A DNA stretch of 64,000 nt from a virus. The stretch spans positions 1-64,000 of IMG/VR virus record IMGVR_UViG_3300032053_004772. One strand, 5' to 3'. Below are positions 4,183 to 61,225 of the stretch, one piece after another. The first letter of the stretch is position 1. Each line of letters opens with the position of its first letter. Position numbers and translations under genes: made by a program. Under the pieces are notes generated by a model that was given only the letters and a program-made list of their open reading frames with translations, had not been told where the DNA came from and searched no databases.

Positions 4183-4524
4183 ATGAACTACCGGATCAAA
4201 CTGAGCTTCGACGCAGCTCACTGGCTTCCACACTACAAGGGGAAGTGTGTAAACTTGCACGGTCATACCTGGCACGTCGAGTTCTATGTTAAGGTACCGA
4301 CTGAACTAGATAAATCCGGAATCGGAATCGACTTTAAAGAGTTGAAGAGAGTGTTGACAGACATCCTTCCGGATCACATGCTAGTGAACGATGTAGTCAC
4401 ACCTCCGTCAGCAGAGAATCTAGTGCAGTATCTGATCAAGCAAGCACACAGACGAGAGGTGTCGGTCACCAAGATAGTGCTGTGGGAAACAGACGACAAC
4501 GGAATCGAATTGGAGGTAGAGTGA
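4183..4524 (+). CDS. queD: 6-carboxy-5,6,7,8-tetrahydropterin synthase (QueD)
   Basis: QueD converts 7,8-dihydroneopterin triphosphate to 6-carboxytetrahydropterin, the second step from GTP to preQ0. The 113-residue length fits the family. The sequence shows the zinc ligands His13, His26 and His28 (FDAAHWLP and HGHTW), catalytic Cys22, the PSAENL motif and the closing LWET. AAGGAG precedes the ATG. Its last bases overlap the start of queE (GTGA), so queD, queE, folE and the methyltransferase form one coupled operon. The pathway is completed by queC and dpdA some 50 kb downstream. Confidence 0.95.
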   Translation: MNYRIKLSFDAAHWLPHYKGKCVNLHGHTWHVEFYVKVPTELDKSGIGIDFKELKRVLTDILPDHMLVNDVVTPPSAENLVQYLIKQAHRREVSVTKIVLWETDDNGIELEVE

Positions 4525-5093
4525 ACTTTCCGGTCGTCGATATCTTCGAGAGCATTCAGGGAGAGGGTTACTGGGTAGGTACCCCCTCCCTTTTTATTCG
4601 TCTTGCGGGATGCAATCTTGAGTGCACCTTCTGCGATACGAAGTTTGACGTGTACGAGGAGTGGTCGCTAGAACGGATTCTAGAGCGAGCAAAGAAGACG
4701 CTAACGACACACGTTGTGATCACGGGAGGAGAACCTACGATCCAACCGAACCTGCATCTACTCGTGCGAGCGTTGCGAGCACGCGGAAAGTACGTAGCGA
4801 TCGAAACGAACGGAACACAGGAGGGGTGGTTCGAAGCGAACTGGCTTACAGTATCCCCGAAGTCGATGGTGACTCGCGAAGATGTTGCGAGCGAGTTGAA
4901 GGTGCTGTGGATCTCTCCGCAGTTTGTAGAGAAGTGGTCAAAACGGAAGAGTCCTCGAGTACAACACAGATACGTGCAACCAGTGGAGATCGGAGGGAAG
5001 TTCATGGAGGTTCCAGCGATTCTGGAGTGGCTACGAAAGAATCCCGATTGGAGGTTATCCGTGCAGATTCACAAGGTACTGGGAATCAAATGA
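4521..5093 (+). CDS. queE: 7-carboxy-7-deazaguanine synthase (QueE)
   Basis: A radical SAM enzyme that rearranges 6-carboxytetrahydropterin to 7-carboxy-7-deazaguanine. Of the possible starts I chose GTG 4521, which overlaps the queD stop and gives a 190-residue protein beginning with the family-typical FPVVDIFESIQGEG. The [4Fe-4S] cluster cysteines are C31, C35 and C38 (CX3CX2C), followed by the SAM-binding VITGGEP. Length is normal for the family. The gene overlaps folE by ATGA. Confidence 0.95.
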   Translation: MNFPVVDIFESIQGEGYWVGTPSLFIRLAGCNLECTFCDTKFDVYEEWSLERILERAKKTLTTHVVITGGEPTIQPNLHLLVRALRARGKYVAIETNGTQEGWFEANWLTVSPKSMVTREDVASELKVLWISPQFVEKWSKRKSPRVQHRYVQPVEIGGKFMEVPAILEWLRKNPDWRLSVQIHKVLGIK

Positions 5094-5662
5094 CGACAGA
5101 ACACAAACTGCAGAACGTGCGGAATCTTCTTCTCGCGATCGGAGAGGATCCGGATCGGGAAGGTTTGAGGGATACACCGAAGCGAGTAGTACGATCGTGG
5201 AAAGAGCTTTTTGGAGGTTACTCGCAGGATCCTATGAGAGTGTTATCTCGAACGTTCTCCTCTGGTGGCTACGATGAGATGATCATACTACGTGAGATTG
5301 AGTTCTACTCTTGCTGCGAACACCACATGCAAGTTTTTTCAGGAAGAGCCTCGATTGCTTACGTACCGAAGGATCGAGTAGTCGGTGTATCCAAACTTGC
5401 TCGGGTGGTAGACATCTACGCTCGTCGGTTACAGATCCAGGAACGGTTGACGGTACAGATCGCGGATGCGATCGAGAAAGCGCTGGAACCGCAGGGTGTG
5501 ATGGTTGTGCTCGAAGCTCAACACCTTTGTATGCGAGCTCGCGGTGTGAAGCAGCAGCACTCACTAATGACGACCTCCGCTATACGAGGGATCTTTCGAG
5601 AGAATCCAGAGGTTCGGGAAGAGTTCTTGGATCTGCTGAAACGGGGAGAAGGAGAGCACTGA
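5090..5662 (+). CDS. folE: GTP cyclohydrolase I (FolE)
   Basis: Opens the GTP ring to make 7,8-dihydroneopterin triphosphate, the precursor consumed by QueD. The 190-residue protein has the zinc ligands Cys76 and His79 (CCEHHM) and Cys147 (CMRARGVKQ), plus the QERLT helix. The frame is open well upstream, but ATG 5090 is the right start because it overlaps the queE stop (ATGA) and yields family length. A phage copy avoids dependence on the host folate pool for making preQ0. Confidence 0.95.
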   Translation: MTTEHKLQNVRNLLLAIGEDPDREGLRDTPKRVVRSWKELFGGYSQDPMRVLSRTFSSGGYDEMIILREIEFYSCCEHHMQVFSGRASIAYVPKDRVVGVSKLARVVDIYARRLQIQERLTVQIADAIEKALEPQGVMVVLEAQHLCMRARGVKQQHSLMTTSAIRGIFRENPEVREEFLDLLKRGEGEH

Positions 5663-11208: not shown

Positions 11209-11210
11209 AG

Positions 11211-11381: not shown

Positions 11382-11426
11382 GTCGGTATTTCTTTTATTA
11401 AGTAGGTCTCAGAGAAAGGAGACAAG

Positions 11427-11837
11427 ATGACGACAGAGATTGCGATTAGGGTCGGAAATGGATCAGTCGAAAATCGGCAACTAACCGATGAGCAGGCTGA
11501 CAAGTTGCAGAACTACAAGACTTTCGCGAGTCACAGCTCTCTAGCGATTGCCGTGATCGAGATCGTCTCGTGGTTTTGTCGAGACTGGTCGAGGCGAACG
11601 CTGCTAACGCCGGAAATTCGGAGTTTAGCTAGAAGCACTAGTCAGACACCTCAACAAGTCGCCGAGCGTCTCGGATGTGCGGAGTCGTACGCTCGTACGT
11701 TGATGAGTTCCGGAGAGATTCCGAGCAAGAACGTTGGATCCGGATCGTTGAAGAAACACTGGGTAACAACTCTCGAAGCGGTCCTTGAGTATCAAGAGAA
11801 AGCGACGTCACCTTCAGAGCCATTTAAAGCCATTTAA
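11427..11837 (+). CDS. Helix-turn-helix DNA-binding protein
   Basis: A 136-residue protein with AAAGGAG before the ATG. Residues 75-125 look like an excisionase/MerR-type winged helix: TPQQVAERLGCAESYARTLMSSGEIP, quoted here in parts, gives helix, turn, recognition helix and the I-P wing. The N-terminal half is not recognised. With no integrase in the window, a transcription-regulator or DNA-packaging role is more likely than excision, but this is inference. Confidence 0.6.
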   Translation: MTTEIAIRVGNGSVENRQLTDEQADKLQNYKTFASHSSLAIAVIEIVSWFCRDWSRRTLLTPEIRSLARSTSQTPQQVAERLGCAESYARTLMSSGEIPSKNVGSGSLKKHWVTTLEAVLEYQEKATSPSEPFKAI

Positions 11838-18026: not shown

Positions 18027-18946
18027 AGATTCTAGTTACTGGTGGAGGCGGTTTTATCGGTTCGCATCTCGTGGATAAGCTTCTAGCTCGCGGCAACGAG
18101 GTGTTCGTATTCGATCGCTCTATTCCTCCGAAGCCTCAATTCGGTGTGAAAGATTGGGGTCATAAAAACTGGTGGTATGGAGATCTGCTAACTGCGGAAT
18201 CGGTGCTACAGTGTGTAGAGGAACACAATCCTGATGTGATCTATCACCTCGCTGCGATTGCAGACGTGAATGAGGTGTTCGCGAAACCGGTAGAAGCTAC
18301 TCGGGTGAATGTGTTGTGTACTCAGCACATTCTAGAGGCTGCTCGAGCGGTGAAAGCTCACGTGATCTACGCAAGTACGATCTGGGTTTACAGCGACACG
18401 ATCGAATCGTCTGTAGATGAGTCTTCTCCGATATCGTTTCCGAGTCATCCGTATACCGTTGGGAAGTACGCTGGAGAGATGCTATGTCACGCGTACTTAA
18501 AGACGTACAACGTTCCGTACACGATCCTGCGCTTCGGCATTCCGTACGGTCCTCGAGCTCGTTCAGCAGCTGTGATCCCTTCTTTCGTTGCTAAGGCGTT
18601 CTCTGGACAGAACATCTCTATTACGGGAGATGGTTCGCAGTGGAGAGAGTTTGTTTACGTTGAGGATCTCGCGGACGGATGCGTTGCTGCTTTACGCTCT
18701 GAAGCAGTGAATGAGGTCTTCAACCTCAGTGGATCCGAGCGAACAACGATCCGAGATCTTGCGTTAATGGTTCAACATCTTGCTCCTTCTCCAATTCAGG
18801 TGTTCTTTACGGAGAGTAGGGCAGCCGACTTTAGGGGTGTGAAGGTCAGTAACTTCAAAGCAGAGAGGTTGCTAGAGTGGAAACCTCACACACCGTTTGT
18901 TGAGGGATTGCAGAAGTACATTGACTGGTATCGCGAGACACTTTAA
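18023..18946 (+). CDS. NAD-dependent nucleotide-sugar epimerase/dehydratase
   Basis: A 307-residue extended short-chain dehydrogenase. The Rossmann motif TGGGGFIGSH is at residues 7-16, and the catalytic YxxxK appears as YTVGK after ASTIWVYSD. The substrate-side IPYGPRARSAAVIPSF segment is typical of UDP-glucose 4-epimerase-like enzymes. It likely makes or interconverts the keto-sugar used by the preceding DegT enzyme. It overlaps its neighbours by 4 bases and 1 base respectively, so it is translationally coupled. Confidence 0.88.
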   Translation: MKILVTGGGGFIGSHLVDKLLARGNEVFVFDRSIPPKPQFGVKDWGHKNWWYGDLLTAESVLQCVEEHNPDVIYHLAAIADVNEVFAKPVEATRVNVLCTQHILEAARAVKAHVIYASTIWVYSDTIESSVDESSPISFPSHPYTVGKYAGEMLCHAYLKTYNVPYTILRFGIPYGPRARSAAVIPSFVAKAFSGQNISITGDGSQWREFVYVEDLADGCVAALRSEAVNEVFNLSGSERTTIRDLALMVQHLAPSPIQVFFTESRAADFRGVKVSNFKAERLLEWKPHTPFVEGLQKYIDWYRETL

Positions 18947-19827
18947 TGAAACTCGCGATTGTGTGTCGCGGTAATAGGCACTTTCTAGAGCCTCTTGAAA
19001 AACACTGGCGTCAGAAATACACTGTTGTAGAGGATCTGCAACTAGCTGATGTGGTCTATGTTGAGTGGGCAAACGAACAGTGCATTCGGGTTTCTCGAGA
19101 GGTTAACAAACGTAAGGTTGTCGTTCGAGTACTCGGCTCTGAGTACTATCAGTGGTTCTGGGCTAGATGCAATCGGGAGACGATTTACTCGTTTATCACA
19201 GAGAATCCTGAATGCGATCTATCGCCGTTTGACTCCGTGCACATTCCAGAGCCGATCAACACCGACTTCTGGATACCAACTGGTGACGCTGCAAAAAATA
19301 CCATAGTACATGTTGGTACTCTTGATCACAATAAAGGACAGTTGAACTTACTGCGAATTCTTGCTGAGAGATCTCGAGAATTTGACGAGGTACTGTTCGT
19401 AGGAAACTCGCAACCGAGAGATCCTGAGGGTGCTGTGAACGCTCGAAAGATTCTAACGCAGGTGATCTATCTAGCGAAAGACCTGCATCTTCTTAACGTT
19501 CGCTTCGTAGGACAGCTACCCCCCGATCGATTACGAGAGTTGTACAACTCTGCTCGAGTGGTAGTTAGTGTTTCGCAGAACGAGGGATGTCAGACCTCAG
19601 TGCAAGAGGCTTTGAGTTGCGGTCATAGTACGGTGTTGGTGCAAAACTGGATGGGTTCTCGGCAACTTTACCCTTCAGAGTGCATCTTCACAACCTCTTC
19701 GGAGTTCTGGAGGGTGATTGACCTGCCACAGCTTCGAAATCGACAGTGGGCTCTGGATCACTTCTCGTATCCGGTTGTTTTACCTAAATTAGACGCAGAA
19801 CTAGAGAGTGCGGCAAGCTGTTTATGA
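18946..19827 (+). CDS. GT4-like glycosyltransferase
   Basis: A 293-residue GT-B fold enzyme resembling the C-terminal domain of the 699-residue protein encoded upstream. Both share a VEW..N / IEWCAAN motif near the start, INTDFW / IDVKRW after the linker, and a MGSRxLxP phrase near the end. The donor-binding region reads HVGTLDHNKGQ and NEGCQTSVQEALSCG, whose glutamate is the usual sugar-nucleotide ligand. Probably arose by duplication within the cassette. Overlaps the radical SAM gene by four bases. Confidence 0.8.
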   Translation: MKLAIVCRGNRHFLEPLEKHWRQKYTVVEDLQLADVVYVEWANEQCIRVSREVNKRKVVVRVLGSEYYQWFWARCNRETIYSFITENPECDLSPFDSVHIPEPINTDFWIPTGDAAKNTIVHVGTLDHNKGQLNLLRILAERSREFDEVLFVGNSQPRDPEGAVNARKILTQVIYLAKDLHLLNVRFVGQLPPDRLRELYNSARVVVSVSQNEGCQTSVQEALSCGHSTVLVQNWMGSRQLYPSECIFTTSSEFWRVIDLPQLRNRQWALDHFSYPVVLPKLDAELESAASCL

Positions 19828-21062
19828 AAATTGCGTTCTTGTACATGAACATAGGTAGTGGAGTGGGAGTCGGATCTGGCTACGTATTCGCATCGATTCC
19901 CGACGAGCACGAGCGACACTTCTTCAACGTACCTCAATATCAGACTGCGTACGAGACTACGAGGTGGCTGCTGATTTCGAACTACGATCTGGTGATGATC
20001 TCGACGTCTACACTATTCGCTCCGCTCGCATTTCAAATTGCAGTTGCTGTACACTCTCACGTTCCTGTACTGCTTGGTGGCATTCACGCGATTATCTTCG
20101 GAGGTGAGCTGCTCCGAGATCATCCAGAATTGGATTACGTCTGTACTGGAGAAGGAGAGACCTTCGTTCAAGAGTTTCTGAAGAAGTGGAAAACTCCAGA
20201 GTTCTTCGAGATTCCAGGATTAGCCTATCGTAAAGGCACAGAGATCGTAGTAAATCCTGAAGGACCTCTAGAAGATCTCTCGAAGCTTCCTGAGTTTCCG
20301 TGGAAGGCCTTTCCGAAGTTGATGAACGAGCGCGGATTCATCTACTTTCACGTTGCTCGCGGTTGTAGATTCGCTTGTACTTACTGCGGAAACAGCGTCT
20401 GTCTTCGGAAGTACGGTCGCGCATACTTGCGACAGCGTCCTATCTCGAAAGTGATCGAGGAGATGCAGCACTTTCGAGACACCTATCATCCGAAGTTGTT
20501 CTTCTTTGAAGTTGAGGAGATGTTCTCCGAGCTCGATTGGGCTACGGAACTCTTTCAGGCGGTGAAGGATCAGGTAGGCGTACCGTACGGATGTATGGCT
20601 CGTTCGGAGAGCTTGAACGCGGATCTAGTCTCTTTCATGAAACGAACCGGCTGTGAGTACGTTGGAATTGGTGTAGAGTGCGGTGATGAGGACTATCGTC
20701 GATCTGTGCTGAAGCGATTTACGACTACGCAGGAAATCCTGGAGTCCTTCCGGCTTTGTAATGAGGCCGGCTTCCTTACGACCAGTTACAACATGATCGG
20801 TTATCCTACCGAACGAGATGAAGAAATCTGCCGGACTACGATTGCACTGAATCGAGAGCTGAATCCTGGAATCTTTCAGGTGACGTGGTTCTATCCGTTT
20901 CCAGGAACGGTGCTCGGTGATTACTGTCGAGAGAACAATCTGATCGACTTGAACAAGATTGGTCAGATGCACACTTATCACGGACAGGGTTCCGTGCTGA
21001 AAATGCATGGCGCAAAGCCAGCGGATCCACACGAATACCTTCGGTCACTAGGAGGATGGTAG
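19824..21062 (+). CDS. B12-binding-type radical SAM enzyme
   Basis: A 412-residue protein with an N-terminal cobalamin-type Rossmann domain (PVLLGGIHAI, CTGEGE; no clear DxHxxG, so B12 contact may be base-off) and a radical SAM core. Cluster cysteines are C181, C185 and C188 in ARGCRFACTYCG. The class commonly methylates unreactive carbons or makes C-C bonds on sugars, lipids and natural products. Within this cassette a sugar or glycan methylation/rearrangement is likely. Radical SAM enzymes other than QueE are uncommon in phages of this type. Confidence 0.85.
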   Translation: MKIAFLYMNIGSGVGVGSGYVFASIPDEHERHFFNVPQYQTAYETTRWLLISNYDLVMISTSTLFAPLAFQIAVAVHSHVPVLLGGIHAIIFGGELLRDHPELDYVCTGEGETFVQEFLKKWKTPEFFEIPGLAYRKGTEIVVNPEGPLEDLSKLPEFPWKAFPKLMNERGFIYFHVARGCRFACTYCGNSVCLRKYGRAYLRQRPISKVIEEMQHFRDTYHPKLFFFEVEEMFSELDWATELFQAVKDQVGVPYGCMARSESLNADLVSFMKRTGCEYVGIGVECGDEDYRRSVLKRFTTTQEILESFRLCNEAGFLTTSYNMIGYPTERDEEICRTTIALNRELNPGIFQVTWFYPFPGTVLGDYCRENNLIDLNKIGQMHTYHGQGSVLKMHGAKPADPHEYLRSLGGW

Positions 21063-21959
21063 ATGGGTGATTTGATCACAATCGTGATCCCAACGTATAA
21101 CGAGCGAGAAGACATGCTCAGAAAAGCGATTGAGACGGTTCTCAATCAGACGTATCCGGACATCGAACTGATTCTGGTAGATGACGGATGTACCGATAAC
21201 ACTCCAGAGATTCTGCAGGAGTATGCGGTAAGAGATAGTCGCGTTCGGGTGTTTCGTAGAGAACGAGATTCGGCCTTTCGCTCAATTGCTCAAGCCTTCA
21301 ATATCGGTTTAGAGAACGCTCGCGGTAAATGGTGGCATCACGATGCCGCTGACTGTTGGCACGAGTTAGATTGGGCGAAACGCTGTATGGACTTCATCAG
21401 AGGACGTGAGAATGAGGTTCTAGGTGTTCATACCAACTGGTGGGTGCATCACTTCGACGGAACAGTAGAGTTCGTTAACACCGGAGAGCGTTGGAGAGGC
21501 GATTGGTCGACCTTCCAGAACTATCAAGTGTACGACTCCTTCGGTGGAATGCTGTTCCGGATGGACGTCGCTAAGAAAGCAGGTCTTTGGGATCCTCGCT
21601 TTCCTAGACACCAAACTCGTGAGTGGACGTACAGAGTGTTGCGTCAGGGAGATCACGTCTACCTTCCGAGAGCGTTGTGGCACTTTGTCTTTCACGAACC
21701 GGATCAGATGAAACGTCGCGCATCTGTGAAGTATCGGATTCTCGCAGATCTGAAGAACGGCATCGATCCGGAGTGCGACCTTAGGATCTCTCTCGGTTCT
21801 GAGGACGGACGTTACGCGGTACTGGATGCGTGTAGAGCATTCTTCACCGATCCAGTTTGGGAGCCAGAACGTTTATCTGGAGTTACGAAGGATAGAATGG
21901 ATCGCTTGTTAGCGGTCTGTAACGAGGAGGCGAGTGAGTCGTGGCACAAGCAACCCTGA
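21063..21959 (+). CDS. Family 2 glycosyltransferase
   Basis: A 298-residue GT-A enzyme: TIVIPTYNERED, LVDDGCTDNTPEI for UDP-sugar binding, then HHDAADCWH in the place of the DxD metal site. The acceptor region FGGMLFRMDVAKKAGLWD and the catalytic-base segment HQTREWTYR follow. GGAGG precedes ATG 21063. Last gene of the glycosylation cassette; it overlaps the connector gene by 19 bases, showing the cassette is now fully integrated into the late operon. Confidence 0.85.
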   Translation: MGDLITIVIPTYNEREDMLRKAIETVLNQTYPDIELILVDDGCTDNTPEILQEYAVRDSRVRVFRRERDSAFRSIAQAFNIGLENARGKWWHHDAADCWHELDWAKRCMDFIRGRENEVLGVHTNWWVHHFDGTVEFVNTGERWRGDWSTFQNYQVYDSFGGMLFRMDVAKKAGLWDPRFPRHQTREWTYRVLRQGDHVYLPRALWHFVFHEPDQMKRRASVKYRILADLKNGIDPECDLRISLGSEDGRYAVLDACRAFFTDPVWEPERLSGVTKDRMDRLLAVCNEEASESWHKQP

Positions 21960-42859: not shown

Positions 42860-43465
42860 ATGGGAAAGATTCTGTTCATCGGGGCTCACACAGATGACGT
42901 GGAATTCGGTTGCGGTGGTACAATCGCAAAGATGATCGAGCGCGGAGAGGAAGTATCTGTCGCTGCTCTCTCTTGGGGATCCTCTCTGTATCCTGAGATG
43001 CACCTAGATCAGGAGTTTCAGAACTCGATGCAGATTTTCGGTGTGAAGGCGACGTTTCTAGGAGACTATCAGATTCGTCTCTTTCCACTTAGTCGACATA
43101 AGATTCTGCAGCATTTGCTGCTAACTCGAGAGCAGGTGCAGCCGGACGTTGTGTTCTTTCCATCCGTTGTCGATATACATCAAGATCATCAGACAGTTTA
43201 TCAAGAGAGTCTTCGAGCGTTTAAGAGAGTCACACACTTCAACTACGAGTTGTTCTGGAACTGTCCAGACTTTCACCCTCAGTACTACGTCGAGTTGAGC
43301 GAGGAGAACTTCACGACTAAAGTGAGAGCGCTGGAGTGTTACGTCTCACAGAAGAATCGTGACTACTTTGATCTGCACAAGATTCGGGTGTGGGCTGAGT
43401 TTCGAGGAGCACAAGTAGGTAAGCAACTTGCCGAAGCGTTTGAAGTAGGAAAGCTTCTCGGATGA
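42860..43465 (+). CDS. PIG-L/LmbE-family deacetylase
   Basis: A 201-residue metal-dependent N-deacetylase. AHTDDVEFGCGGT at residues 8-20 is the family form of the metal-binding AHPDDE motif (with Thr for Pro and Val-Glu following), and DIHQDHQTVY near residue 100 supplies further ligands. Family members remove acetyl groups from GlcNAc-type sugars and related molecules. First of three coupled enzymes with an ATP-grasp and a PHP protein, so it may prepare a free amine that is then ligated. Confidence 0.8.
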   Translation: MGKILFIGAHTDDVEFGCGGTIAKMIERGEEVSVAALSWGSSLYPEMHLDQEFQNSMQIFGVKATFLGDYQIRLFPLSRHKILQHLLLTREQVQPDVVFFPSVVDIHQDHQTVYQESLRAFKRVTHFNYELFWNCPDFHPQYYVELSEENFTTKVRALECYVSQKNRDYFDLHKIRVWAEFRGAQVGKQLAEAFEVGKLLG

Positions 43466-44520
43466 AACTGCCTCGAGTCTTAATCACGGGGGTAGGTGCT
43501 CCCGGTACTAGGGGTACGATCTTCTGTCTTCAGAAGAACTTCGATCGGCAGAAGGTGTTTATCCTTGGTACAGACTCCGACGTTAGCGCAGTAGGTCGAC
43601 ACTTTGTGGATAGGTTCTTCACGATTCCGTATGCTGAGACTGGAATGCGATATCTGAAAGCTCTGCAGGAGTTATGTGAAGAGCATCGAGTTGACGTGAT
43701 ACTTCCTCAGAACACTGCGGAGTTGCTCATCCTTGCCTGTCATCGAGAGTCATTCAAAAGAACTCGCATCTGTGTTTCTAGCGGTGATGCGATCTGTAAG
43801 TCGAACCACAAGATTCGACTGTTACAGGAGTTTCAGAGGGCGAGTCTTCCTTTTCCGACGTACACAGTTGTTACAAATGAAGCCGAGTTGATACAGGGTT
43901 TAGCCGGATTAAGCTACCCGAGAGAGCAAGTCGTAGTAAAGATTCCAGACGGTTCTGGAGGAAGAGGTGTTCGAATTATTTCGTCTCGACCTTATAACTG
44001 GCACAGTTTCGTGCATGAGAAGCCGAACGCTCTAGAGTGGAACTTAGATCAGCTACTTAAAGTTGCGCGTGAAGGTTTTCCTTCTCCTCTCTTACTAACA
44101 GAGTACCTTCCTGGGAGAGAGTACTCTGTTGACGTGTTTAGAGGACTGAGTACAGAGATTGCGATACCTCGAGTTCGACTACGAATCCGTAGTGGTATCA
44201 CGTTTGACACTGAGATCGTTCGGCACGAAGAGATCGAGCGACAGTCTTTGATTGCTGCTCGTGCAATCGATCTTCGGTACGCGTTCGGCTTTCAGTTTCG
44301 AGAGAATGCTCAAGGTAAAGCGCGTGTCATAGAATGCAATCCGAGAGTGCAGGGTACGATGGTAGCCAGTTACTTTGCAGGTGCAAACATTCCGTGGATG
44401 GCAATACGAGAGGCTCTCGGTCTTACGCAGCATCCAGAGGTTCAGATTCAGACTGCGCGTTTCACTCGATATTGGGGAGGAGTTGGACTTGTCCACAACG
44501 AACGGCCGATCAGTATCTAG
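43462..44520 (+). CDS. ATP-grasp ligase (carbamoyl-phosphate-synthase-like)
   Basis: A 352-residue protein with an N-terminal pre-ATP-grasp Rossmann part (VLITGVGAPGTRGT). The ATP-grasp domain proper follows: VVVKIPDGSGGRGVRII (glycine-rich loop), LLTEYLPGREYSVDVF and VIECNPRVQGTM with the Mg2+-binding Glu/Asn. The class forms an amide or peptide bond through an acylphosphate. It overlaps the deacetylase by four bases. Likely substrates are a sugar amine or peptide, but none is proven. Confidence 0.82.
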   Translation: MKLPRVLITGVGAPGTRGTIFCLQKNFDRQKVFILGTDSDVSAVGRHFVDRFFTIPYAETGMRYLKALQELCEEHRVDVILPQNTAELLILACHRESFKRTRICVSSGDAICKSNHKIRLLQEFQRASLPFPTYTVVTNEAELIQGLAGLSYPREQVVVKIPDGSGGRGVRIISSRPYNWHSFVHEKPNALEWNLDQLLKVAREGFPSPLLLTEYLPGREYSVDVFRGLSTEIAIPRVRLRIRSGITFDTEIVRHEEIERQSLIAARAIDLRYAFGFQFRENAQGKARVIECNPRVQGTMVASYFAGANIPWMAIREALGLTQHPEVQIQTARFTRYWGGVGLVHNERPISI

Positions 44521-45130
44521 CGTTTTCGGTAGGAGATACCTGTTTCATGTACACTCTCAGTTTGCAGATGGATCGGCTTCCGTGGAGGACTACCTTCGAC
44601 TCGCACAAGCGCACGATCTAGAGACCGTCACGATTTTGGAACATGCACGTCGCATACCGTCTTACAGTGTACAGCGATATGCAGACACCATTCGAGAGAC
44701 CTCGAATCGGTTAGGGATCAGAGCGCTAGTAGGATTTGAGGTTAAGCTGGATTCGGATGGTTCGTTGGACATCAACGATGAGACACTGGCTCTCGCGGAT
44801 GTAGTGGGATTAGCGGTTCACAAGTTTCCGAATGACTTCATGATGTTTATGAAGGCGTTCTCCTCGGTACTACGATTGTGCAGCGACAAGATTCGAGTGT
44901 GGGTTCATCCGGGACTATGGTTCGTTCGGAGGGGAATTCTCGAGGAGAAGTTTTTGGTGTATACAGCGATGTTGAATATCGCTGTAAGTGAGGGTTGGTT
45001 TATAGAGTACAATCTGAAGTACAACTTGATCCCGAGATCGTGGCGGAAACTTGTACATCGGAGTAAGTTGGTAACCGGCGTTGATGCTCACTCTATAGAT
45101 GATGTAAGAAAGCATATTCATCTACTATAG
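44489..45130 (+). CDS. PHP-domain metal-dependent phosphoesterase
   Basis: Start set at TTG 44489 because GGGGAGG lies eight bases upstream; an upstream in-frame ATG would overlap the ATP-grasp gene heavily. The 213-residue product opens with FHVHSQFADGSAS, the PHP motif 1 (normally DLHxHTxxSDG), and has VGFEVKL, VWVHPG and a final GVDAHS, matching later metal ligands. Such proteins hydrolyse phosphoesters or phosphates of nucleosides and sugars. Last gene before terminator T45183. Confidence 0.7.
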   Translation: MSTTNGRSVSSVFGRRYLFHVHSQFADGSASVEDYLRLAQAHDLETVTILEHARRIPSYSVQRYADTIRETSNRLGIRALVGFEVKLDSDGSLDINDETLALADVVGLAVHKFPNDFMMFMKAFSSVLRLCSDKIRVWVHPGLWFVRRGILEEKFLVYTAMLNIAVSEGWFIEYNLKYNLIPRSWRKLVHRSKLVTGVDAHSIDDVRKHIHLL

Positions 45131-46582: not shown

Positions 46583-47338
46583 ATGTGCGGAATCACTGGC
46601 TTTGTTAAGACCGCCGATCGAACGTACGCAACTGAGCCGGTGCTGCGCTCCGTGTTTGAGGTGATGCAGATTCGTGGAGAGCACGCTAGTGGAATCGCTG
46701 CGTTGATGGGAAGCAAGAAGAAGCGAGAGATCGGAGTTGCTAAGGGTAACGTTCCGTCGACCGAGTTCGTACAGAGAGACGAGTGGAAGGAGTTCGTTCC
46801 TCGCGCGAACGTGCTGATCGCGCATACGAGATACGCTGTCTACGGGAATCCGTCCGACAACATTAACAACCATCCGCACAGCACCGACGACTACAAGTAC
46901 TCGTTGATCCACAACGGAATAGTGCACGATCGACCTAAGAGCGTTCGAGGGTTGCTTAAGAGCAAATGTGACTCTGAGATACTCTTACGGTTGCTCGAAA
47001 AGAACGGAGTTGTGAAGGGATTCCGAAAGATCGCGCATATGAAGCGTTCCTCTGTAGCAGTGCTAGTGATCAAGGCCGACACTGGAGTACTTTATGCGTA
47101 TCGGAACGAACACTCGCCGCTGGTGTACTGCGATCTGACGACCGAGATCGGAGGGTTGCTCTTTGCTAGCACGGCCGAGTTGATGGTAGAAGGTATTCGA
47201 AAGGCCGGATTCGATTTCGGAGATATCGAACGGCGCTGTGCTCCTATAATTCCAAACGTGGTGTACGCGTTCACAACTAAGCGCAGGTATCCGAAGACGA
47301 AAGTTCTTACGGAGAGCGTTGTTCAGACAGTGACGTAG
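46583..47338 (+). CDS. Class II glutamine amidotransferase (stand-alone)
   Basis: A 251-residue Ntn-hydrolase amidotransferase domain. It begins MCGITGF, whose Cys2 becomes the N-terminal nucleophile, and has IAHTRYAVYG, NNHPH, YSLIHNGIVHD and CDSEILLRLL in family order. It releases ammonia from glutamine for a partner. No synthase or phosphosugar domain is attached, so a partner is needed. Candidates are the adjacent amidoligase or QueC, since archaeal GAT-QueC fusions use this domain type to make archaeosine. Confidence 0.9.
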   Translation: MCGITGFVKTADRTYATEPVLRSVFEVMQIRGEHASGIAALMGSKKKREIGVAKGNVPSTEFVQRDEWKEFVPRANVLIAHTRYAVYGNPSDNINNHPHSTDDYKYSLIHNGIVHDRPKSVRGLLKSKCDSEILLRLLEKNGVVKGFRKIAHMKRSSVAVLVIKADTGVLYAYRNEHSPLVYCDLTTEIGGLLFASTAELMVEGIRKAGFDFGDIERRCAPIIPNVVYAFTTKRRYPKTKVLTESVVQTVT

Positions 47339-53575: not shown

Positions 53576-54235
53576 ATGCGTCGGGTCGTCTTGATTCTGT
53601 CGGGTGGAATGGATTCCACGACTCTTCTTGCTGTGTTGAAGTCAGAACACGATGAGGTGCGTACGCTGACGTTCAACTACGGTTCGAAGCATAACGAACG
53701 AGAGAATTACGCCGCGGATTTGCTTTCAACTACGTACGGCGTAGCAAACAATCTGATCTCTCTGCCGTTTATCGACAAGCTGTTCAGCTCCGATCTATTG
53801 AAGAGCGGAGAAGACGTTCCGAGCGGACACTACACCGATGAGTCACAGCGTCGGACAGTAGTGCCTTTTCGAAACGGAATCATGCTGTCGATCGCGGTTG
53901 GTTTCGCTGAGTCGATTGGTTTCGACTACGTCGCGTTTGCGAATCACGCCGGTGATCACGCGATCTATCCTGACTGTAGAGAGAGATTCGTCTCCGCGCT
54001 GGATGCGGCCGCACAAGCGGGAACGTATCTTGGAGTGAAGGTGGTCTCTCCGTTCTTGATGAAGACGAAGACGGACATCGTTCGGATAGGACATCGTATC
54101 GGAGTTCCTTATCATCTCACGTACTCATGCTATCGCGGAGGTGTTAAACACTGTGGTACGTGTGGCACGTGTACAGAGCGGAAGGAAGCGTTTCGAGATG
54201 CCGGCGTGAAGGATCCGACGGAGTATATAGTATGA
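53576..54235 (+). CDS. queC: 7-cyano-7-deazaguanine (preQ0) synthase QueC
   Basis: QueC converts 7-carboxy-7-deazaguanine to preQ0 using ATP and ammonia. The 219-residue protein has the PP-loop SGGMDS (residues 9-14), VVPFRNGIMLS, and a zinc site of C185, C193, C196 and C199 (CGTCGTC). GGAGG precedes the ATG. The four preQ0 genes are split between this operon and the one at 4183. It overlaps the aminotransferase gene by ATGA. Confidence 0.95.
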   Translation: MRRVVLILSGGMDSTTLLAVLKSEHDEVRTLTFNYGSKHNERENYAADLLSTTYGVANNLISLPFIDKLFSSDLLKSGEDVPSGHYTDESQRRTVVPFRNGIMLSIAVGFAESIGFDYVAFANHAGDHAIYPDCRERFVSALDAAAQAGTYLGVKVVSPFLMKTKTDIVRIGHRIGVPYHLTYSCYRGGVKHCGTCGTCTERKEAFRDAGVKDPTEYIV

Positions 54236-55215
54236 TTCGTTTGCACAAGAACGAGTACTCTGGAGAGTATCCGGATTCATCGTTTGAAGTGTTAAGACAT
54301 TACTGCGATGGAACACAACTGAAGAAGCAATTAGCGAAGTACTTCGGAGTGTTGGAGGAGTGGGTCGCTCTGGAACAAGGAGCGACTCTTGCTCTTGAAA
54401 GAATATTCTCGGAGTTTAAGGAGTCTCCGATTCAGATTCCGGCTGACGTGTGGCCGACGTATTTTACGATCTTAGAACACACTCATAGAAACAAGATCGT
54501 GCGTTTGCGTGATGTGTATCTGTCGATTGAGATTACGAGAAGGTTTGTGCAAACTCCTCCACGTCTAACGCCTCTGATGAGGGATGGATTGTTTGTGATT
54601 ACCTCTCCAAGTAATCCAGATGGAAGTTTCGTTCCGCAGTCAGAGATTGAGTATCTGTGTAACGAGAAGCGAGAACTTACTGTGTTGTTGGATATTGCGT
54701 ATCACGACTACGCAACGACGCCCTACGATATCTCAACGCTGCTGGCACGGCACTCGAATTTGATCCTGGTGTGGTCGTTCTCAAAGACGTTTGGTTTAGC
54801 GGGTGCGAGAGTTGGAGTAATTCTTTGCTCAGATAAAAAATTGCTAGGTAGTCTTTTTCTCTCTCCACTCGGTATTAACTCCTATAGTGAACTGCTGTGC
54901 TTGCAGGCGTTAGAGAAGCGTGAGTTCTTTGTAGAACAGGTTCAGCGTTTGCGAGGGAGACGCGATCGGTTTATCGACACCGTGAATCAGGAGATGACTT
55001 CATTTACAGCATACTACTCGGAGGGAAACTTCTGTCTGTTGAAACCACACTCTATGAGATCAGAAGACGCACAAAGCCGACTGCGCGCGCGAGGTGTAGC
55101 GGTCAGACACTTTCCTTCGACGATTTGGGATAAGTATTTGAGAGTAACGATCGGAACCGAAACAGAGATGGTGTATCTCGTTCATCAGCTGGAGGAGCTA
55201 GATGGAAGAGTTTAG
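54232..55215 (+). CDS. PLP aminotransferase/decarboxylase in the deazaguanine cluster
   Basis: A 327-residue fold-type I PLP enzyme starting at ATG 54232 (overlapping the queC stop); a longer in-frame reading is out of place. It resembles HisC/CobD enzymes: the LHKNEYSGEYP start, SPSNPDG (N128), LLDIAYHDY (D154, Y157) and SFSKTFGLAGARVG with Schiff-base Lys185 and phosphate-site Arg193. All active-site residues are present. Located between queC and the ArcS-core gene, it may supply or act on an amino group for base modification. Not part of any deazaguanine pathway I know. Confidence 0.8.
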   Translation: MIRLHKNEYSGEYPDSSFEVLRHYCDGTQLKKQLAKYFGVLEEWVALEQGATLALERIFSEFKESPIQIPADVWPTYFTILEHTHRNKIVRLRDVYLSIEITRRFVQTPPRLTPLMRDGLFVITSPSNPDGSFVPQSEIEYLCNEKRELTVLLDIAYHDYATTPYDISTLLARHSNLILVWSFSKTFGLAGARVGVILCSDKKLLGSLFLSPLGINSYSELLCLQALEKREFFVEQVQRLRGRRDRFIDTVNQEMTSFTAYYSEGNFCLLKPHSMRSEDAQSRLRARGVAVRHFPSTIWDKYLRVTIGTETEMVYLVHQLEELDGRV

Positions 55216-55822
55216 GTATCTCAGGGGTACGAGTCACGAGTGCGTAGACGCGTTCGAGGATCTCTGGTTGAAGACGATGCGGAAGTTTCGTCCGATTAGT
55301 AAGATCGCGTTGTTCGTGCCGTGTTCGTGGGGAAAACCCTATAGTCAGTCGTACATTCACTTCTTTATCAATCGAGAGTTACACAAGTTGGGTTTGCTGC
55401 ATCGGATCGATCGATGGCATGTGTCGAACGCCGGTATCATTCCAGCGTCCGCTGAACTAGATGGTATATCGAACGACGTTGGATTCTTTGCATACGATTG
55501 GGATTCTCGCTTTCAAACGGAGGAAGAAGAGAAGTATCACGTGCGGAGTACTTCTGAGAGACTATTGATGTGGAAGTCCTTCGTCGGAAGCAAGTATCCG
55601 ATCAAGTTTTCTTATCTGCGTCCTGGATCAAAGGGACTTCGAGCAATACAGGCAACACTTTCGGAAGTGACCAATCTTGCTCCGAATCCAAACAGACCGA
55701 GTGATCTTCCTCCACAGTGTGTTCACGATCCTGATACCGTCTTGATTAGTGCTATCAACTTGCAGTTTTTGGGAACATCTATCGAGCGCGCTTTGAAGGG
55801 AGAAAAGAAGTGGGACGACTGA
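55202..55822 (+). CDS. ArcS-core (archaeosine-synthase-like) protein
   Basis: A 206-residue protein whose PCSWGKPYSQSYIH (residues 40-53) is the signature of archaeosine synthase ArcS core domains (PCS..KPY..S..H). In archaea ArcS attaches lysine to the preQ0 nitrile in tRNA. Here it stands alone, without TGT or PUA domains, next to DpdA and queC. ArcS-core proteins may thus modify preQ0 in phage DNA. The FDxDW-like AYDWDSRFQTEEEE region is also shared. Overlaps its neighbours by 14 and 13 bases. Confidence 0.75.
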   Translation: MEEFRYLRGTSHECVDAFEDLWLKTMRKFRPISKIALFVPCSWGKPYSQSYIHFFINRELHKLGLLHRIDRWHVSNAGIIPASAELDGISNDVGFFAYDWDSRFQTEEEEKYHVRSTSERLLMWKSFVGSKYPIKFSYLRPGSKGLRAIQATLSEVTNLAPNPNRPSDLPPQCVHDPDTVLISAINLQFLGTSIERALKGEKKWDD

Positions 55823-56424
55823 TTGCAGTGGAGGGCGCTGATTGCACTGGAAAGAGCATACTCGTGGAGAGACTGCTTCAAATGCGACCGGAGTTGTGTC
55901 ACACGGTTGAAGACCATCCGATCGATACGCACTTAGACGCTGTGGCAGATTGGTACGTGAATCCTGAGGATGAACACGTGAAGTTTTATCTATATCTTGC
56001 GGAGACAGTGCATCTGAGTGTACAGCATCGGAGTTTGTTACAGAAGTATCCGGGAAAGCATGTCATTCTAGATCGTAGTGCTTTTTCGATGCTGGCGTAC
56101 TCAGAGATGTTTACATTACCGATGTCGAGAGAGTGTGCAGATAAAATCCTTCGGACGTTCATCTCTACGATTCAGATGCCAGACGTCATTCTGTATCTTT
56201 ATGCTTTATCGGGTACGATCGAGCGACGATTAAGTGCTCGAGGTGATCGATCGGGAGTTTATGAGAAGAGGGCTCGGACGGATTCGTCGTTCTGGAATCG
56301 CTTACATCTCGCGTATCGAAAGTGGTTCGATCTAACGTCTGTAGCTGTAATACCGATTGATACCGACTCGTTAAGTATTCCGGACGTTTATAATCAGGTC
56401 GTTGCTATTTTGGAGGGTTTATGA
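55810..56424 (+). CDS. dNMP (thymidylate-type) kinase
   Basis: A 204-residue P-loop kinase from GTG 55810, overlapping the ArcS-core gene by 13 bases. Walker A is EGADCTGKS, followed by a DRS motif (VILDRSAFS) and a lid segment with ERRLSARGDRSG. Resembles phage thymidylate or deoxynucleotide kinases. Its place between ArcS-core and DpdA genes raises the possibility that it phosphorylates a modified precursor, but general dTMP kinase is the simpler reading. Confidence 0.78.
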   Translation: MGRLIAVEGADCTGKSILVERLLQMRPELCHTVEDHPIDTHLDAVADWYVNPEDEHVKFYLYLAETVHLSVQHRSLLQKYPGKHVILDRSAFSMLAYSEMFTLPMSRECADKILRTFISTIQMPDVILYLYALSGTIERRLSARGDRSGVYEKRARTDSSFWNRLHLAYRKWFDLTSVAVIPIDTDSLSIPDVYNQVVAILEGL

Positions 56425-57203
56425 GAGTGTGCTTCATTACTCCTCGGAAATACTTTCGTGAGTTTTGCTCCCGATACAGTGACTACTATCTGTTACTCTC
56501 TCACTGGATTGAGTCTGAGCGAGACTTGACACCCTTTCGTGATCGTTATGTGATCCTAGATAACGGCGCGTACGAGAACGGGAAGCCTCATGAGATCGAT
56601 CGATACGTTCAACTCATCGAACGCCTTCGACCTGACGAGATTGTTACTCCTGATGTACGCTTTGATGCGCAAGCTACCATCACAGCAACGTGTCAGTTTC
56701 TGAAGGATCATCATGAGTCTCGTTACAAGTATCTAGCGCCGGTACAGGGAACTAACTGGGAGGAGTGGACTCACTGCTACCGAACCTTTCTGGACGATCC
56801 AAAAGTAGATGTGATCGGGATCACGGATGTACCTGTAGAGAAGACTGTTCTGAGCTACGCATACGATAAACTACCAGCAGCGTTCTCTCGCGTGTACGCG
56901 ATGGAGTACTTGGATCGTTTAGGTCTGCTACAGAAACCTATTCACATTCTGGGATCGGTTGATCCGGCAGAATTGCCGTGGCTGCGATACTTCAGACACG
57001 CACGAAGTACGGATTCGAAGATCGCGTTCTGGAACGGGGTTTCGAACGATCGATTGCATCCAACCTCCGGTCTGAGACGAGGTTCGATCAAGATTGAGAG
57101 TATGACATGGGATTGGAGTGGTCAACTAACGCTGCGTCAGCGGCGTAATATCTTATACAACATAGCGGTATTTAAGGCATTAGCCGGAGGAGGCAAAAAA
57201 TGA
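56421..57203 (+). CDS. dpdA: DpdA-type DNA guanine transglycosylase
   Basis: A 260-residue TGT-fold protein of the phage DpdA type, which exchanges guanine for preQ0 in DNA. ILDNGAYENG (Asp47) and TPDVRFD (Asp78) provide the two conserved aspartates of TGT-like barrels; LAPVQGTN and IHILGS follow. The TGT zinc motif CxCxxC is absent, as in phage DpdA. It overlaps the kinase by four bases. Together with queC/D/E and folE this makes DNA 7-deazaguanine modification very likely. Confidence 0.85.
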   Translation: MRVCFITPRKYFREFCSRYSDYYLLLSHWIESERDLTPFRDRYVILDNGAYENGKPHEIDRYVQLIERLRPDEIVTPDVRFDAQATITATCQFLKDHHESRYKYLAPVQGTNWEEWTHCYRTFLDDPKVDVIGITDVPVEKTVLSYAYDKLPAAFSRVYAMEYLDRLGLLQKPIHILGSVDPAELPWLRYFRHARSTDSKIAFWNGVSNDRLHPTSGLRRGSIKIESMTWDWSGQLTLRQRRNILYNIAVFKALAGGGKK

Positions 57204-57724: not shown

Positions 57725-58152
57725 TTCGATTTAAACTGCTGAGTTCGACCGCGCACGCTCCTACTCGAGCTCACGCCGACGATGCCGGTTGGGATCTGTA
57801 CGCTTCTAGTAATGTCGAGATTGCGTCCTTCTCTTACGGTGAGATACCGTTTGATATCGCTATTGAGCTTCCAAAACCGTTTGATGGTTGGATCTGGGAA
57901 GCGCACATTCGACCGCGCTCTGGTACGCGACGTAAAGGTTTGTTCGCTACCTTCGGTACTATAGATCAAGGGTATCGAGGACCACTCAGTGCGATCGTGA
58001 TTAACATGAATCCGAATCCATTTCTCATTCAAGAAGGTGATCGGATTGCACAACTAGTCGTGGTCGCGATTCCGACGGTGTTCTTTGAGGCTGCCTTAGC
58101 TTTGAGTGAGTCTTTCCGAGGGGAGAGGGGATTCGGAAGTAGTGGCGTATGA
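57709..58152 (+). CDS. dut: dUTP diphosphatase (dUTPase)
   Basis: A 147-residue trimeric dUTPase fold. Its five motifs are visible: ADDAGWDLYA, RPRSGT, GTIDQGYRGPL (uracil pocket), GDRIAQLVV and RGERGFGSSG at the C-terminus. It hydrolyses dUTP to dUMP, preventing uracil incorporation and supplying dTMP synthesis. Its overlap with the UDG-polymerase gene links two anti-uracil functions in one operon. Confidence 0.92.
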   Translation: MADQVVRFKLLSSTAHAPTRAHADDAGWDLYASSNVEIASFSYGEIPFDIAIELPKPFDGWIWEAHIRPRSGTRRKGLFATFGTIDQGYRGPLSAIVINMNPNPFLIQEGDRIAQLVVVAIPTVFFEAALALSESFRGERGFGSSGV

Positions 58153-60596
58153 GAGTACTCAAGAGAGAGTGTAACTGCGCTTTGTGCGAGGATAGCGTTT
58201 CCAACTCAGGAGTGAGACGCTGTAAGATTGAGGGTACCGGACCGAAGAACGCGAAGGTGATGATTGTCGGTCAGTGTCCTGGTTCTGATGAAGTGGAACG
58301 AGGAGAGAACTTCGTTGGAAGAGCTGGCGAGTTGTTGAACGACATGCTACGAGAGGCTAATATACCTCGAGAAGAACTGTACTTTGCGAATGTAGTCAAG
58401 TGTCGACCGAGTGTGATCTCGGAAACTCGTCGAGTTGATCGAGATCCGAAACCGCAAGAGATTAACGCGTGTCTTCCGTTGTTGATAGATGAGATACGCA
58501 CAATTCGTCCTGCCGTGATTGTATCCGTGGGAAACATTCCGATGCGAGTTCTGACCGGAATCTCCGGAGTGATGACGTGGCAGACGTGTGTAATGTTTCA
58601 TCGACTGTTTCAGTGCTGGGTTGTACCGATGATTCATCCAAGTGCGTTATTGCGTTGGGGAGCGACTCAGGGATTAGACTTTGATCTATCCGTGATAGCT
58701 CTCTCTACAGCTTGGGAGTATCGGGATCGTCGAGTACGAATCACGCGCGTGACTAGACATTTTGTACAAGATGCGAGTGAGGCTGAGGAGATTGTTGTAC
58801 AGTGTGTGCAGCACGATGCCTTTGCTTTTGACTTTGAGACGTATCTGAACGGATCGCTTCGTGGATTGGGTCTATGTTGGCGTTTCTGTGAAGCATACTA
58901 TATTCCAGCGAAGTTTTTGACGAGCGCGCTGGTGAGTCGACTTGCAAGAGATGGGCGAGATTCTATGAAGATCGCTCACAACGTTGCGTTCGATCGAAGT
59001 GTTGCTCGATGGACGTGCGGTGTTGAACTGGGTCCGAAGGTCTTCGACACGATGATTGCTCATCATTTGTTAGAGGAGGAGATGCCGTACGGTCTCAAGG
59101 ATCTGGAGTGGTTGTATACTGATAAGGGTGGTCGTGCTGACTTGATCAAACCACATTACGGTAAGCCAACTTGGGACCGATTACCAGAGGATGTTGTTGG
59201 TGAGTACTGTTGCGACGATGTGGAGAGCACGTTTCGGCTCTATCATCGATTCAAGAAGGAGCTTGCTCGAGAGGGGCTTGAGTATCTGTTCGAGAACGTC
59301 TCGATGCCGACTACTCGCGTTGTAGAGGAGCTTGAACATAACGGAGTTCCGATCGATGAGAGCGCTATGACTGCAGTAACAGATCGATGTCTCGAGTTGG
59401 AGGAACTCTCTGTAACACGCGTACGAAAGATTGCCGGTGACTTCAACGTTAACTCTGGTCAGCAGTTAGGTGACATACTCTACGTGAAATTGAAACTTCC
59501 GGAACAGCATACCAAGACAAAGAGGTGGAAGACGGATGGAGAGACGTTAAAGAAGCTGAAACCTCTCGATCGTTCTGGTATTATCGACGAAATCTTGAAT
59601 ATCAAAAAGCAGAGAAAGATTCTGTCGACGTATATAAAAGGCACTCGAAAAAGGATGCGTAACGGACGAGCATACTACAGTTTCTTGCAACCTGGAACTG
59701 TAACGGGAAGACTCTCTAGCGCCTTTCATACCTTTCCGAGGAATGCGGCAATTCGTAGGATTATAGGAGCTTCTTCGGGGAGGAAACTGATCGATGCAGA
59801 CTTCGATCAGATTGAGTTGCGTATAGGAGCCTCTCTCTCGGGTGATCCTGAGATGATCAGAGTTTTCCGAGAGGGCGGAGATATCCACAACGAGGTGGCA
59901 TGTACTCTCTACGGACTGGAGCCTGGAAGTGAAGTAGACGTTGAGCAGCGAAATACTGCGAAGGGATTTGACTTCGGTGTTTTCTTCGGGCGAGGAGCTC
60001 AGTCGGTTGCTGATGAGATGGGAGTTTCGTTACAAAAAGCACAGGAATGGATTGATCGTTTTGCTCGTCGTTTTGCAGTGCTGTGGCAGTGGATTGATCA
60101 GCAGCATGTGTTTGTTAGGGAGCATTTATACGTGCGAAATCTCTACGGAAGAAGACGTCAGTTGAAGCATGCGATAAATCCAGATACGAATATGCAAGCG
60201 GAGGCTGAACGACAAGCCGTGAACGCTCCTATTCAGGGTGGCGCAAACGATATAGCGTGTATCGCGTGGGAACGAATTCGAGAACGAGCTCAACGTGAAA
60301 AGCTAGATGCGAAACTGTGCGGGATTGTACACGACGAGATCTTGGTAGAGACGGACGACGCGAGTGCAGAGTACGTAGCTCTGTTAATGAAAGAGGAGAT
60401 GGAAAAACCGTATCCGAGATTGTTAGTACCTATGACAGCGGACGTTCATATTGTGCAGAACTGGTACGAGCATAAGGCATCTAAGACTATTGTGGATCCT
60501 ACCGATGAGGAACTGCAGGATGACGAAGAGATAGATGGCGTTGATCGAGTTCTTGAATTGGTAGATTGGTCAGTTGAGCCTCCGGAGGTAATATGA
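58149..60596 (+). CDS. Uracil-DNA glycosylase fused to family A DNA polymerase
   Basis: An 815-residue fusion. Residues 1-190 are a family 4/5-type UDG: GQCPG (41-45), ENFVGRAGELL (53-63), HPS (163-165), and cysteines C10, C13, C85 and C108 spaced like its [4Fe-4S] ligands. Residues 220-370 are a 3'-5' exonuclease (AFDFET, NVAFDRS, YCCDD). The polymerase follows with motif A DFDQIELR (D551), motif B R601..K605..FDFG and motif C VHDE (728-730). No 5'-3' exonuclease. It likely replicates the genome while excising uracil. Motif B has F613 where Tyr is usual. Confidence 0.92.
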   Translation: MRVLKRECNCALCEDSVSNSGVRRCKIEGTGPKNAKVMIVGQCPGSDEVERGENFVGRAGELLNDMLREANIPREELYFANVVKCRPSVISETRRVDRDPKPQEINACLPLLIDEIRTIRPAVIVSVGNIPMRVLTGISGVMTWQTCVMFHRLFQCWVVPMIHPSALLRWGATQGLDFDLSVIALSTAWEYRDRRVRITRVTRHFVQDASEAEEIVVQCVQHDAFAFDFETYLNGSLRGLGLCWRFCEAYYIPAKFLTSALVSRLARDGRDSMKIAHNVAFDRSVARWTCGVELGPKVFDTMIAHHLLEEEMPYGLKDLEWLYTDKGGRADLIKPHYGKPTWDRLPEDVVGEYCCDDVESTFRLYHRFKKELAREGLEYLFENVSMPTTRVVEELEHNGVPIDESAMTAVTDRCLELEELSVTRVRKIAGDFNVNSGQQLGDILYVKLKLPEQHTKTKRWKTDGETLKKLKPLDRSGIIDEILNIKKQRKILSTYIKGTRKRMRNGRAYYSFLQPGTVTGRLSSAFHTFPRNAAIRRIIGASSGRKLIDADFDQIELRIGASLSGDPEMIRVFREGGDIHNEVACTLYGLEPGSEVDVEQRNTAKGFDFGVFFGRGAQSVADEMGVSLQKAQEWIDRFARRFAVLWQWIDQQHVFVREHLYVRNLYGRRRQLKHAINPDTNMQAEAERQAVNAPIQGGANDIACIAWERIRERAQREKLDAKLCGIVHDEILVETDDASAEYVALLMKEEMEKPYPRLLVPMTADVHIVQNWYEHKASKTIVDPTDEELQDDEEIDGVDRVLELVDWSVEPPEVI

Positions 60597-61225
60597 AGAA
60601 AGTGGTCTCATTCGACGGTCACGGAACTCTGTTCGAGGAAGCTCCTGATCACTATCGGAAGATTGCGCAGATGCTTAACACGGAGGAGAGTACTGTACGA
60701 GCAGCTTATTCGCGCATCGTTTCTCATCGTCTTCGAGGATATCCTGAGCTTGTTAGAGATGACATTATTCAGACGTTCTGGTTGAGCGTGTATCAAGAGA
60801 TAGCCGGTTTCGTGACAACATTTCGACAGACGAATCTCGGCAAAATGATTCTCGACTACGCGATGACTAAGGAAGCGTGGGTTCCGAAACTATTAGGAGT
60901 TCGTTTTCTGAAGTATGCGAGTAAGCTGGGTTTTCGCTGCATTCTGTGTTCCGAGTGGGATAGTTGGATCGCTGCTTTGCTAGAGCACTTCGGTTTGAAC
61001 AAGTTGTTCGATGAGATGTATATCACAGGTTTGCAGGGTCACGCAAAGTGGACTCCGATGTTTTGGAGTTATGTGCTGTCTGAGGAAGCTCTCTCTCATC
61101 CGTCGCGATTGTTGCACGTCGGAAATGATCCTCTTACAGATGAGAAGATTCCGAGAGGTTTAGGAATTGAGACATTCTCAATACGCGCCTCCTTTATGGA
61201 GTTTCGGGTTAAGTTGGAATCGTAA
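60593..61225 (+). CDS. HAD-superfamily protein with altered catalytic motif
   Basis: A 210-residue HAD-like hydrolase. Motif 1 reads VSFDGHGTLF: the nucleophile Asp8 is present, but the general-acid Asp two residues on is His10, which often reduces or changes activity. GFRCILCSEWDSW and HVGNDPLTDEKIPRGLGI are the usual motifs II and IV. It overlaps the polymerase stop by four bases. It may bind or slowly dephosphorylate nucleotides. Confidence 0.7.
   Translation: MKKVVSFDGHGTLFEEAPDHYRKIAQMLNTEESTVRAAYSRIVSHRLRGYPELVRDDIIQTFWLSVYQEIAGFVTTFRQTNLGKMILDYAMTKEAWVPKLLGVRFLKYASKLGFRCILCSEWDSWIAALLEHFGLNKLFDEMYITGLQGHAKWTPMFWSYVLSEEALSHPSRLLHVGNDPLTDEKIPRGLGIETFSIRASFMEFRVKLES

Follow-up and report, generated by a model that had tools for sequence, protein, structure and literature searches.

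A candidate deazaguanine hypermodification pathway in phages that would pair an aminotransferase with an ArcS core domain

Why would a phage keep a pyridoxal 5′-phosphate (PLP) enzyme and a relative of the archaeosine synthase ArcS between queC, which makes 7-cyano-7-deazaguanine (preQ0), and dpdA, whose product is predicted to insert this base into DNA? The question is raised by the IMG/VR virus record IMGVR_UViG_3300032053_004772 (86,773 bases), of which positions 1 to 64,000 form the stretch analyzed here, hereafter referred to as the window. At 53576-57203 the window carries five complete genes in the same direction, all of which were found where an initial annotation of the sequence had placed them. 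The overlaps between successive genes, which that annotation had given as 4-14 bases, are 4, 14, 13 and 4 bases. The five genes are as follows:

53576..54235, + strand: queC, preQ0 synthase (PF06508, 206 bits; TIGR00364 equivalog, 183.3 bits, passing the cut-off of 150.3)
54232..55215, + strand: HisC/CobD-family PLP enzyme, 327 amino acids, ATG at 54232 (Aminotran_1_2, E 6e-30)
55202..55822, + strand: stand-alone ArcS core domain (PCSWGKPYSQSYIH), 206 amino acids (DUF5591; archaeal-only profile; fold match)
55810..56424, + strand: dTMP/deoxynucleoside-kinase-like protein (dTMP-kinase-like by profile matches; also present in the related locus L017)
56421..57203, + strand: dpdA, predicted DNA preQ0 insertase with a tRNA-guanine transglycosylase (TGT) fold (AlphaFold model against the PDB; tblastn; alignment)

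Our proposal, to which we give roughly balanced credence, is that these genes belong to a phage deazaguanine hypermodification pathway, where the aminotransferase would supply an amine and the ArcS core would join that amine to the nitrile of preQ0. Somewhat more tentatively, we suggest that the products are N-substituted archaeosine-type 7-deazaguanines and form a class of DNA bases not yet described, each made by an ArcS core from an aminotransferase-made amine, with two unrelated aminotransferases serving in different phage groups.

The PLP enzyme is a member of the fold-type I class I/II aminotransferases, having an Aminotran_1_2 domain together with the PLP lysine and arginine motifs, and it is the sole Aminotran_1_2 protein above cut-off in the record. 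When aligned to solved HisC chains, it retains SPSNPDG, D-x-A-Y, the lysine motif SFSKTFGLAGARVG and the C-terminal arginine motif R-x-T-I-G. By profile score the enzyme appears nearest to HisC and then to CobD, far under both equivalog cut-offs (143.7 bits against 276.55 for TIGR01141, HisC; 106.3 bits against 290.55 for TIGR01140, CobD).

The protein encoded next had been singled out as an ArcS core for its PCSWGKPY..S..H motif, an assignment that held up. It retains the PCSxxKPYSxSxxH residues and, further along, the G, P and YD positions of the archaeal proteins. The match to Pfam DUF5591 was weak (22.9 bits, E 8e-5, not reaching the cut-off of 26). A profile of eleven archaeal loci gave 74 bits (E 4e-22; the best of 1000 shuffles scored 4.9 bits), with the caution that the archaeal sequences were found using patterns derived from the phage alignment. 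A model of moderate confidence (predicted local distance difference test, pLDDT, of 77) had only one PDB match under E 0.001, AF0587 (2q07; query TM-score, TMq, 0.55), which was also recovered by the ArcS-core sequence profile. The full archaeosine synthase model NF040592 scored 18.4 bits against a cut-off of 440, and the region that precedes the core in the sampled archaeal proteins is missing upstream. By these comparisons, the window protein consists of the ArcS core alone and falls short of a full archaeosine synthase.

Comparison with other phages suggests that the two genes travel as a pair. The closest relative found, L017, has a sigma-like gene, queC, the kinase gene, dpdA, a zinc-ribbon gene and polA in the same order as the window; its kinase gene directly follows queC, and the PLP and ArcS genes are both missing. 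Because they are absent together from this syntenic locus, PLP and ArcS look like one cassette that was gained or lost as a unit. A second kind of pairing was found in four distant phage lineages (Yong-L2-223/Ssp-JY38, L007, L158 and L159), the first represented by two isolated Synechococcus phages and the others by IMG/VR loci. Here, a class III aminotransferase gene, non-orthologous to the HisC-type gene of the window, lies directly upstream of, and overlaps, a gene whose product joins an N-terminal HAD-type domain to an ArcS core. The fusion always follows the class III aminotransferase:

L003, 7593-8582: HAD-ArcS fusion
L007, 9611-10567: HAD-ArcS fusion
L158, 9023-10003: HAD-ArcS fusion
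L159, 2965-3972: HAD-ArcS fusion

In L007, L158 and L159, the gene order is queE, queC, aminotransferase, HAD-ArcS, a QueD-type gene, folE and a TGT-like gene, and in Ssp-JY38 and Yong-L2-223 the genes queC, queD, folE and a TGT-like gene lie upstream of the aminotransferase at a distance of some 4-7 kb. L158 and L159 were retrieved with the aminotransferase as the query, and both (2/2) are ArcS-linked. The fusions, labelled acid phosphatase or hypothetical in GenBank phage entries, are 43-68% identical to one another, their aminotransferases are 34-54% identical, and the HAD-type domain retains DxDGT and, further on, an acidic pair. No relative of the fusion was found on plasmids, and searches with three further alignments returned only L007 or its record. 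An RpiB-like sugar-phosphate isomerase gene, seen in the Synechococcus phages only, is located directly 3′ of the HAD-ArcS gene (L003, 8582-9025); its product might provide the aminotransferase with a ketose phosphate.

In a tree of ArcS cores, from which the out-of-frame archaeal row L149 was left out, the window core fell in one clade with the aminotransferase-linked cores (support 98/99, and 100/99 when divergent viral rows were omitted). The cores of Vibrio phage nt-1 and L032, neither of which has these aminotransferases, branched apart. Beside the motif histidine, every aminotransferase-linked core has I where the sampled archaeal cores have T. The L032 core, encoded directly 3′ of queC at 10644-11735, grouped with that of nt-1 (100/99). 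To gauge the background, we searched the full length of 50 viral records that contain queC or ArcS. ArcS cores were present in 6/50, one of them weak, and class III aminotransferases in two of the 50, both with an ArcS core, as opposed to none of the 44 records without one; the sole PF00155 match was a DegT-type sugar enzyme. The ArcS-like protein of L074 was weak (E 0.017 to 7e-6 by profile) and was not used as strong evidence. The pairing is rare, yet aminotransferases of these kinds in these phages adjoin an ArcS core.

Candidates of two sorts were discarded. Matches to the PLP enzyme in phage collections (Acinetobacter MD-2021a, faecal and Listeria records) resemble hisC-type genes of hosts and seem to come from contaminated or unannotated entries, and the aminotransferase encoded after queC in L071 is a DegT-type sugar enzyme within a sugar cluster.

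Several observations weigh against our proposal. The association counts are small, the class III examples share ancestry, and 4/6 of the ArcS-bearing records entered the set because they carry ArcS. The window ArcS row sits on a long branch (about 2), which makes its precise position uncertain. Neither a PLP nor an ArcS gene was present in any of the 54 viral loci found with the window's DpdA, scans with protein patterns taken from the PLP enzyme and ArcS core of the window returned no viral relative, and the substrate amine is not readable from sequence. The window also has no fused HAD domain. A separate HAD gene, which possibly supplies a phosphatase partner for the module, lies about 3.4 kb downstream of dpdA and has no detectable similarity to the HAD-ArcS fusion of the other phages:

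60593..61225, + strand: HAD-family hydrolase, REG-2-like (TIGR02252, E 8e-15, below cut-off)

The interpretation given in the initial annotation stands in part. Speaking for its link between PLP enzyme and ArcS core are the joint absence from L017 and the occurrence, among preQ0 genes, of another aminotransferase class with ArcS cores of the same clade; the exact HisC-type gene is known from one genome. That annotation had also considered that the PLP gene might be unlinked to dpdA in all relatives. Taken broadly, across both kinds of aminotransferase, this is not what we found, but a search for a second phage with a HisC-type PLP gene linked to queC or dpdA returned none.

The base that such a module would decorate can probably be made by the phage itself. 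From family assignments, the preQ0 pathway appears complete in the record, with folE, queD and queE at 4183-5662 in addition to queC, and a transporter gene is present further on. The initial annotation had listed neither those three genes nor the transporter:

4183..4524, + strand: queD, 6-carboxytetrahydropterin synthase, PTPS family (PF01242, 83.8 bits, whole-record search)
4482..5093, + strand: queE, 7-carboxy-7-deazaguanine synthase, radical SAM (PF04055, E 3e-14; TIGR04508, E 6e-33, under the equivalog cut-off)
5090..5662, + strand: folE, GTP cyclohydrolase I (TIGR00063, 238.6 bits, cut-off 181.6)
Record 67734-68441, outside the window: queuosine-precursor transporter, YhhQ family (TIGR00697, 110.7 bits, passing the equivalog cut-off of 50.95)

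The real start of queE is probably slightly downstream of 4482, and the open frame of folE runs from 4661 with homology from about 5110. The missing queF, remarked on at the outset, is missing from the entire 86,773-base record, where the sole match was a sub-threshold cross-match within folE.

For DpdA, the earlier assignment was borne out by the modeled fold and by the neighborhood. The protein has no significant Pfam or NCBIfam match. With tblastn, it matched Flavobacterium phage proteins that carry the annotation DNA guanine transglycosylase. An AlphaFold model from a 19-sequence alignment (pLDDT 92.6) matched only TGT-family structures among the PDB matches listed, with the DpdA crystal structure 7ui4 ranked third (E 1e-6). 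D47 (in LDNGAYE) and D198, candidate catalytic aspartates, are invariant in the same alignment. The gene shares its operon with queC, and many of its relatives adjoin queC, queD, queE and folE. Going by fold and family, DpdA would put preQ0 into DNA. The kinase gene belongs to the plain preQ0 cluster and not to the extra chemistry, because L017 has it beside dpdA without PLP and ArcS. A dTMP-kinase-like gene lies near dpdA in three different phages (window, 55810-56424; L017, 1470-2075; L004, 7478-8002), where it perhaps serves the modified or released nucleotide. In Sulfolobus virus STSV2 (L012, 3061-4471), a DUF5591 protein (71.6 bits) is encoded just downstream of an uncharacterised 291-amino-acid protein that could be a DpdA.

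We picture the pathway in the following way. FolE, QueD, QueE and QueC, as expected from their families, would make preQ0, which the transporter may also scavenge, and DpdA would then swap some guanines in the phage DNA for it. To this the PLP enzyme and the ArcS core would add a two-gene module that decorates preQ0, a view backed by the synteny and by the second, non-orthologous pairing. The PLP enzyme would most likely be an aminotransferase that produces a small primary amine. A phosphorylated keto compound is a plausible precursor, since HisC-type enzymes use phosphate esters and the other phage version has a HAD-type domain, whose DxDGT and acidic pair suggest a phosphorylated intermediate. 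The ArcS core would join this amine to the preQ0 nitrile and yield an N-substituted amidine related to archaeosine, as archaeal ArcS does with lysine. For lysine transfer to preQ0 nucleosides, archaeal ArcS can do without the L-shaped structure of tRNA (PMC11298593), which makes it plausible that an ArcS core adds an amine to preQ0 in DNA. We speculate that the resulting bulky, probably charged base would shield the DNA from host restriction. Both the identity of the amine and the order of events, with the amine made before coupling, are points that we infer.

The reverse order deserves attention, with the ArcS core putting lysine on preQ0 in the DNA and the PLP enzyme subsequently transaminating or decarboxylating at the free alpha-amine. 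PLP enzymes are thought to trim or otherwise act on DNA-bound amino acids in phage thymidine hypermodification, which offers an analogy, and the archaeal motif residues are kept in the window core. L-lysine is, moreover, the substrate of archaeal ArcS (PMC11298593). We nevertheless regard coupling before amine processing as unlikely: HisC-type and acetylornithine-type enzymes usually take small substrates, the HAD-type domain fused to ArcS in the other phages suggests that a small phosphorylated compound is involved, and the I in place of the archaeal T beside the motif histidine, along with the separate clade, hints at a changed amine. The end product could instead be plain 2′-deoxyarchaeosine (dG+), with the ArcS core and the PLP enzyme standing in for archaeal ArcS and RaSEA. 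Release of the amidine from lysine requires C-N cleavage, a step that RaSEA carries out by radical chemistry and for which a HisC-type enzyme, working at the far alpha-carbon, has no simple route. In favor of such a replacement, no RaSEA was recognised in the record, where the sole radical SAM protein found besides QueE is a B12-binding-type enzyme of a sugar cluster, and Vibrio phage nt-1, which has an ArcS core, contains traces of dG+ in addition to 2′-deoxy-7-cyano-7-deazaguanosine (dPreQ0) and 2′-deoxy-7-amido-7-deazaguanosine (dADG) (PMC6884629). Phages already make dG+ by the simpler Gat-QueC (PMC6884629), however, and we consider dG+ an improbable end product here.

There may also be no further chemistry. 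On this reading, dPreQ0 (or dADG) is the only modification in the DNA, the ArcS core either adds water to the nitrile or does nothing, and the PLP gene comes along as a metabolic passenger. We give this very little credence, as it leaves unexplained why two unrelated aminotransferase classes are found beside ArcS cores of one clade and why PLP and ArcS are jointly absent from L017. What can be said for it is that L017 has a plain preQ0 set without the pair, and that nt-1 has mostly dPreQ0 despite its ArcS core (PMC6884629). The nt-1 values were reported for a fixed set of bases (PMC6884629), so that a heavier adduct could have been missed.

Other genes in the window are described here for completeness. 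At 58149-60596, as in L017 at 3424-5328, there is a gene for a DNA polymerase A that has a family 4 uracil-DNA glycosylase domain at its N-terminus, and in the window a dUTPase gene adjoins it. A sugar cluster at 17037-21959, shortly before a virion gene, comprises a DegT aminotransferase, an epimerase, two glycosyltransferases and a B12-binding radical SAM protein, and at 42860-45130 a PIG-L de-N-acetylase, a PylC-like ATP-grasp protein and a third open frame follow in series. A stand-alone class II glutamine amidotransferase domain with an MCGITGF start lies at 46583-47338. It was considered as half of a split Gat-QueC, recurred in one other searched locus only, and was dropped.

The 7-deazaguanines known from phage DNA are dPreQ0, dG+, dADG and 2′-deoxy-7-aminomethyl-7-deazaguanosine (dPreQ1) (Hutinet 2019, PMC6884629). 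If our proposal is correct, it would add a branch of phage DNA chemistry with an amine-derived side chain at the 7-position of deazaguanine, and with it a new candidate base for evading restriction, as well as an enzyme that makes amidines from nitriles in DNA. A 2023 study by Cui reportedly described four further phage 7-deazaguanines, in which the variants come from methyl, formyl and decarboxylation steps and not from an aminotransferase-ArcS pair. Our literature search, which did not cover that paper and so leaves absence unproven, returned no paper on ArcS-type DNA adducts or on aminotransferases in such operons. The proposal also offers a role for the phage ArcS cores, a matter left open in 2019, when phage ArcS homologues were listed and their function was called less clear (PMC6884629). 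As the sister module occurs in cultured Synechococcus phages, among them Yong-L2-223 with Synechococcus sp. PCC 7002 as its listed host, the predicted base is open to direct search.

How does this locus compare with known systems? The PLP enzyme shares its family and family motifs with HisC (histidinol-phosphate aminotransferase) and CobD (threonine-phosphate decarboxylase), but it is set apart by its low equivalog scores, and no histidine or cobalamin genes were seen adjoining it. Archaeal ArcS/RaSEA, which acts on tRNA at G15, has an ArcS core with the same PCSxxKPYSxSxxH motif, whereas the window has the core only, no recognised RaSEA, a presumed DNA target and a PLP enzyme as partner. Vibrio phage nt-1 (DpdA2) likewise encodes a stand-alone ArcS core, with a QueD-like gene, folE and queC nearby, but that core is divergent (CTTTRPY, no motif histidine) and branches apart, and the nt-1 record has no PF00155 or PF00202 protein. 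With the phage DpdA systems described previously (PMC6884629), some of which have ArcS homologues, the window shares folE, queD, queE, queC, a TGT-fold DpdA and a YhhQ-type transporter; unlike them, it shows neither a fused Gat-QueC nor QueF, and it adds a PLP aminotransferase paired with ArcS.

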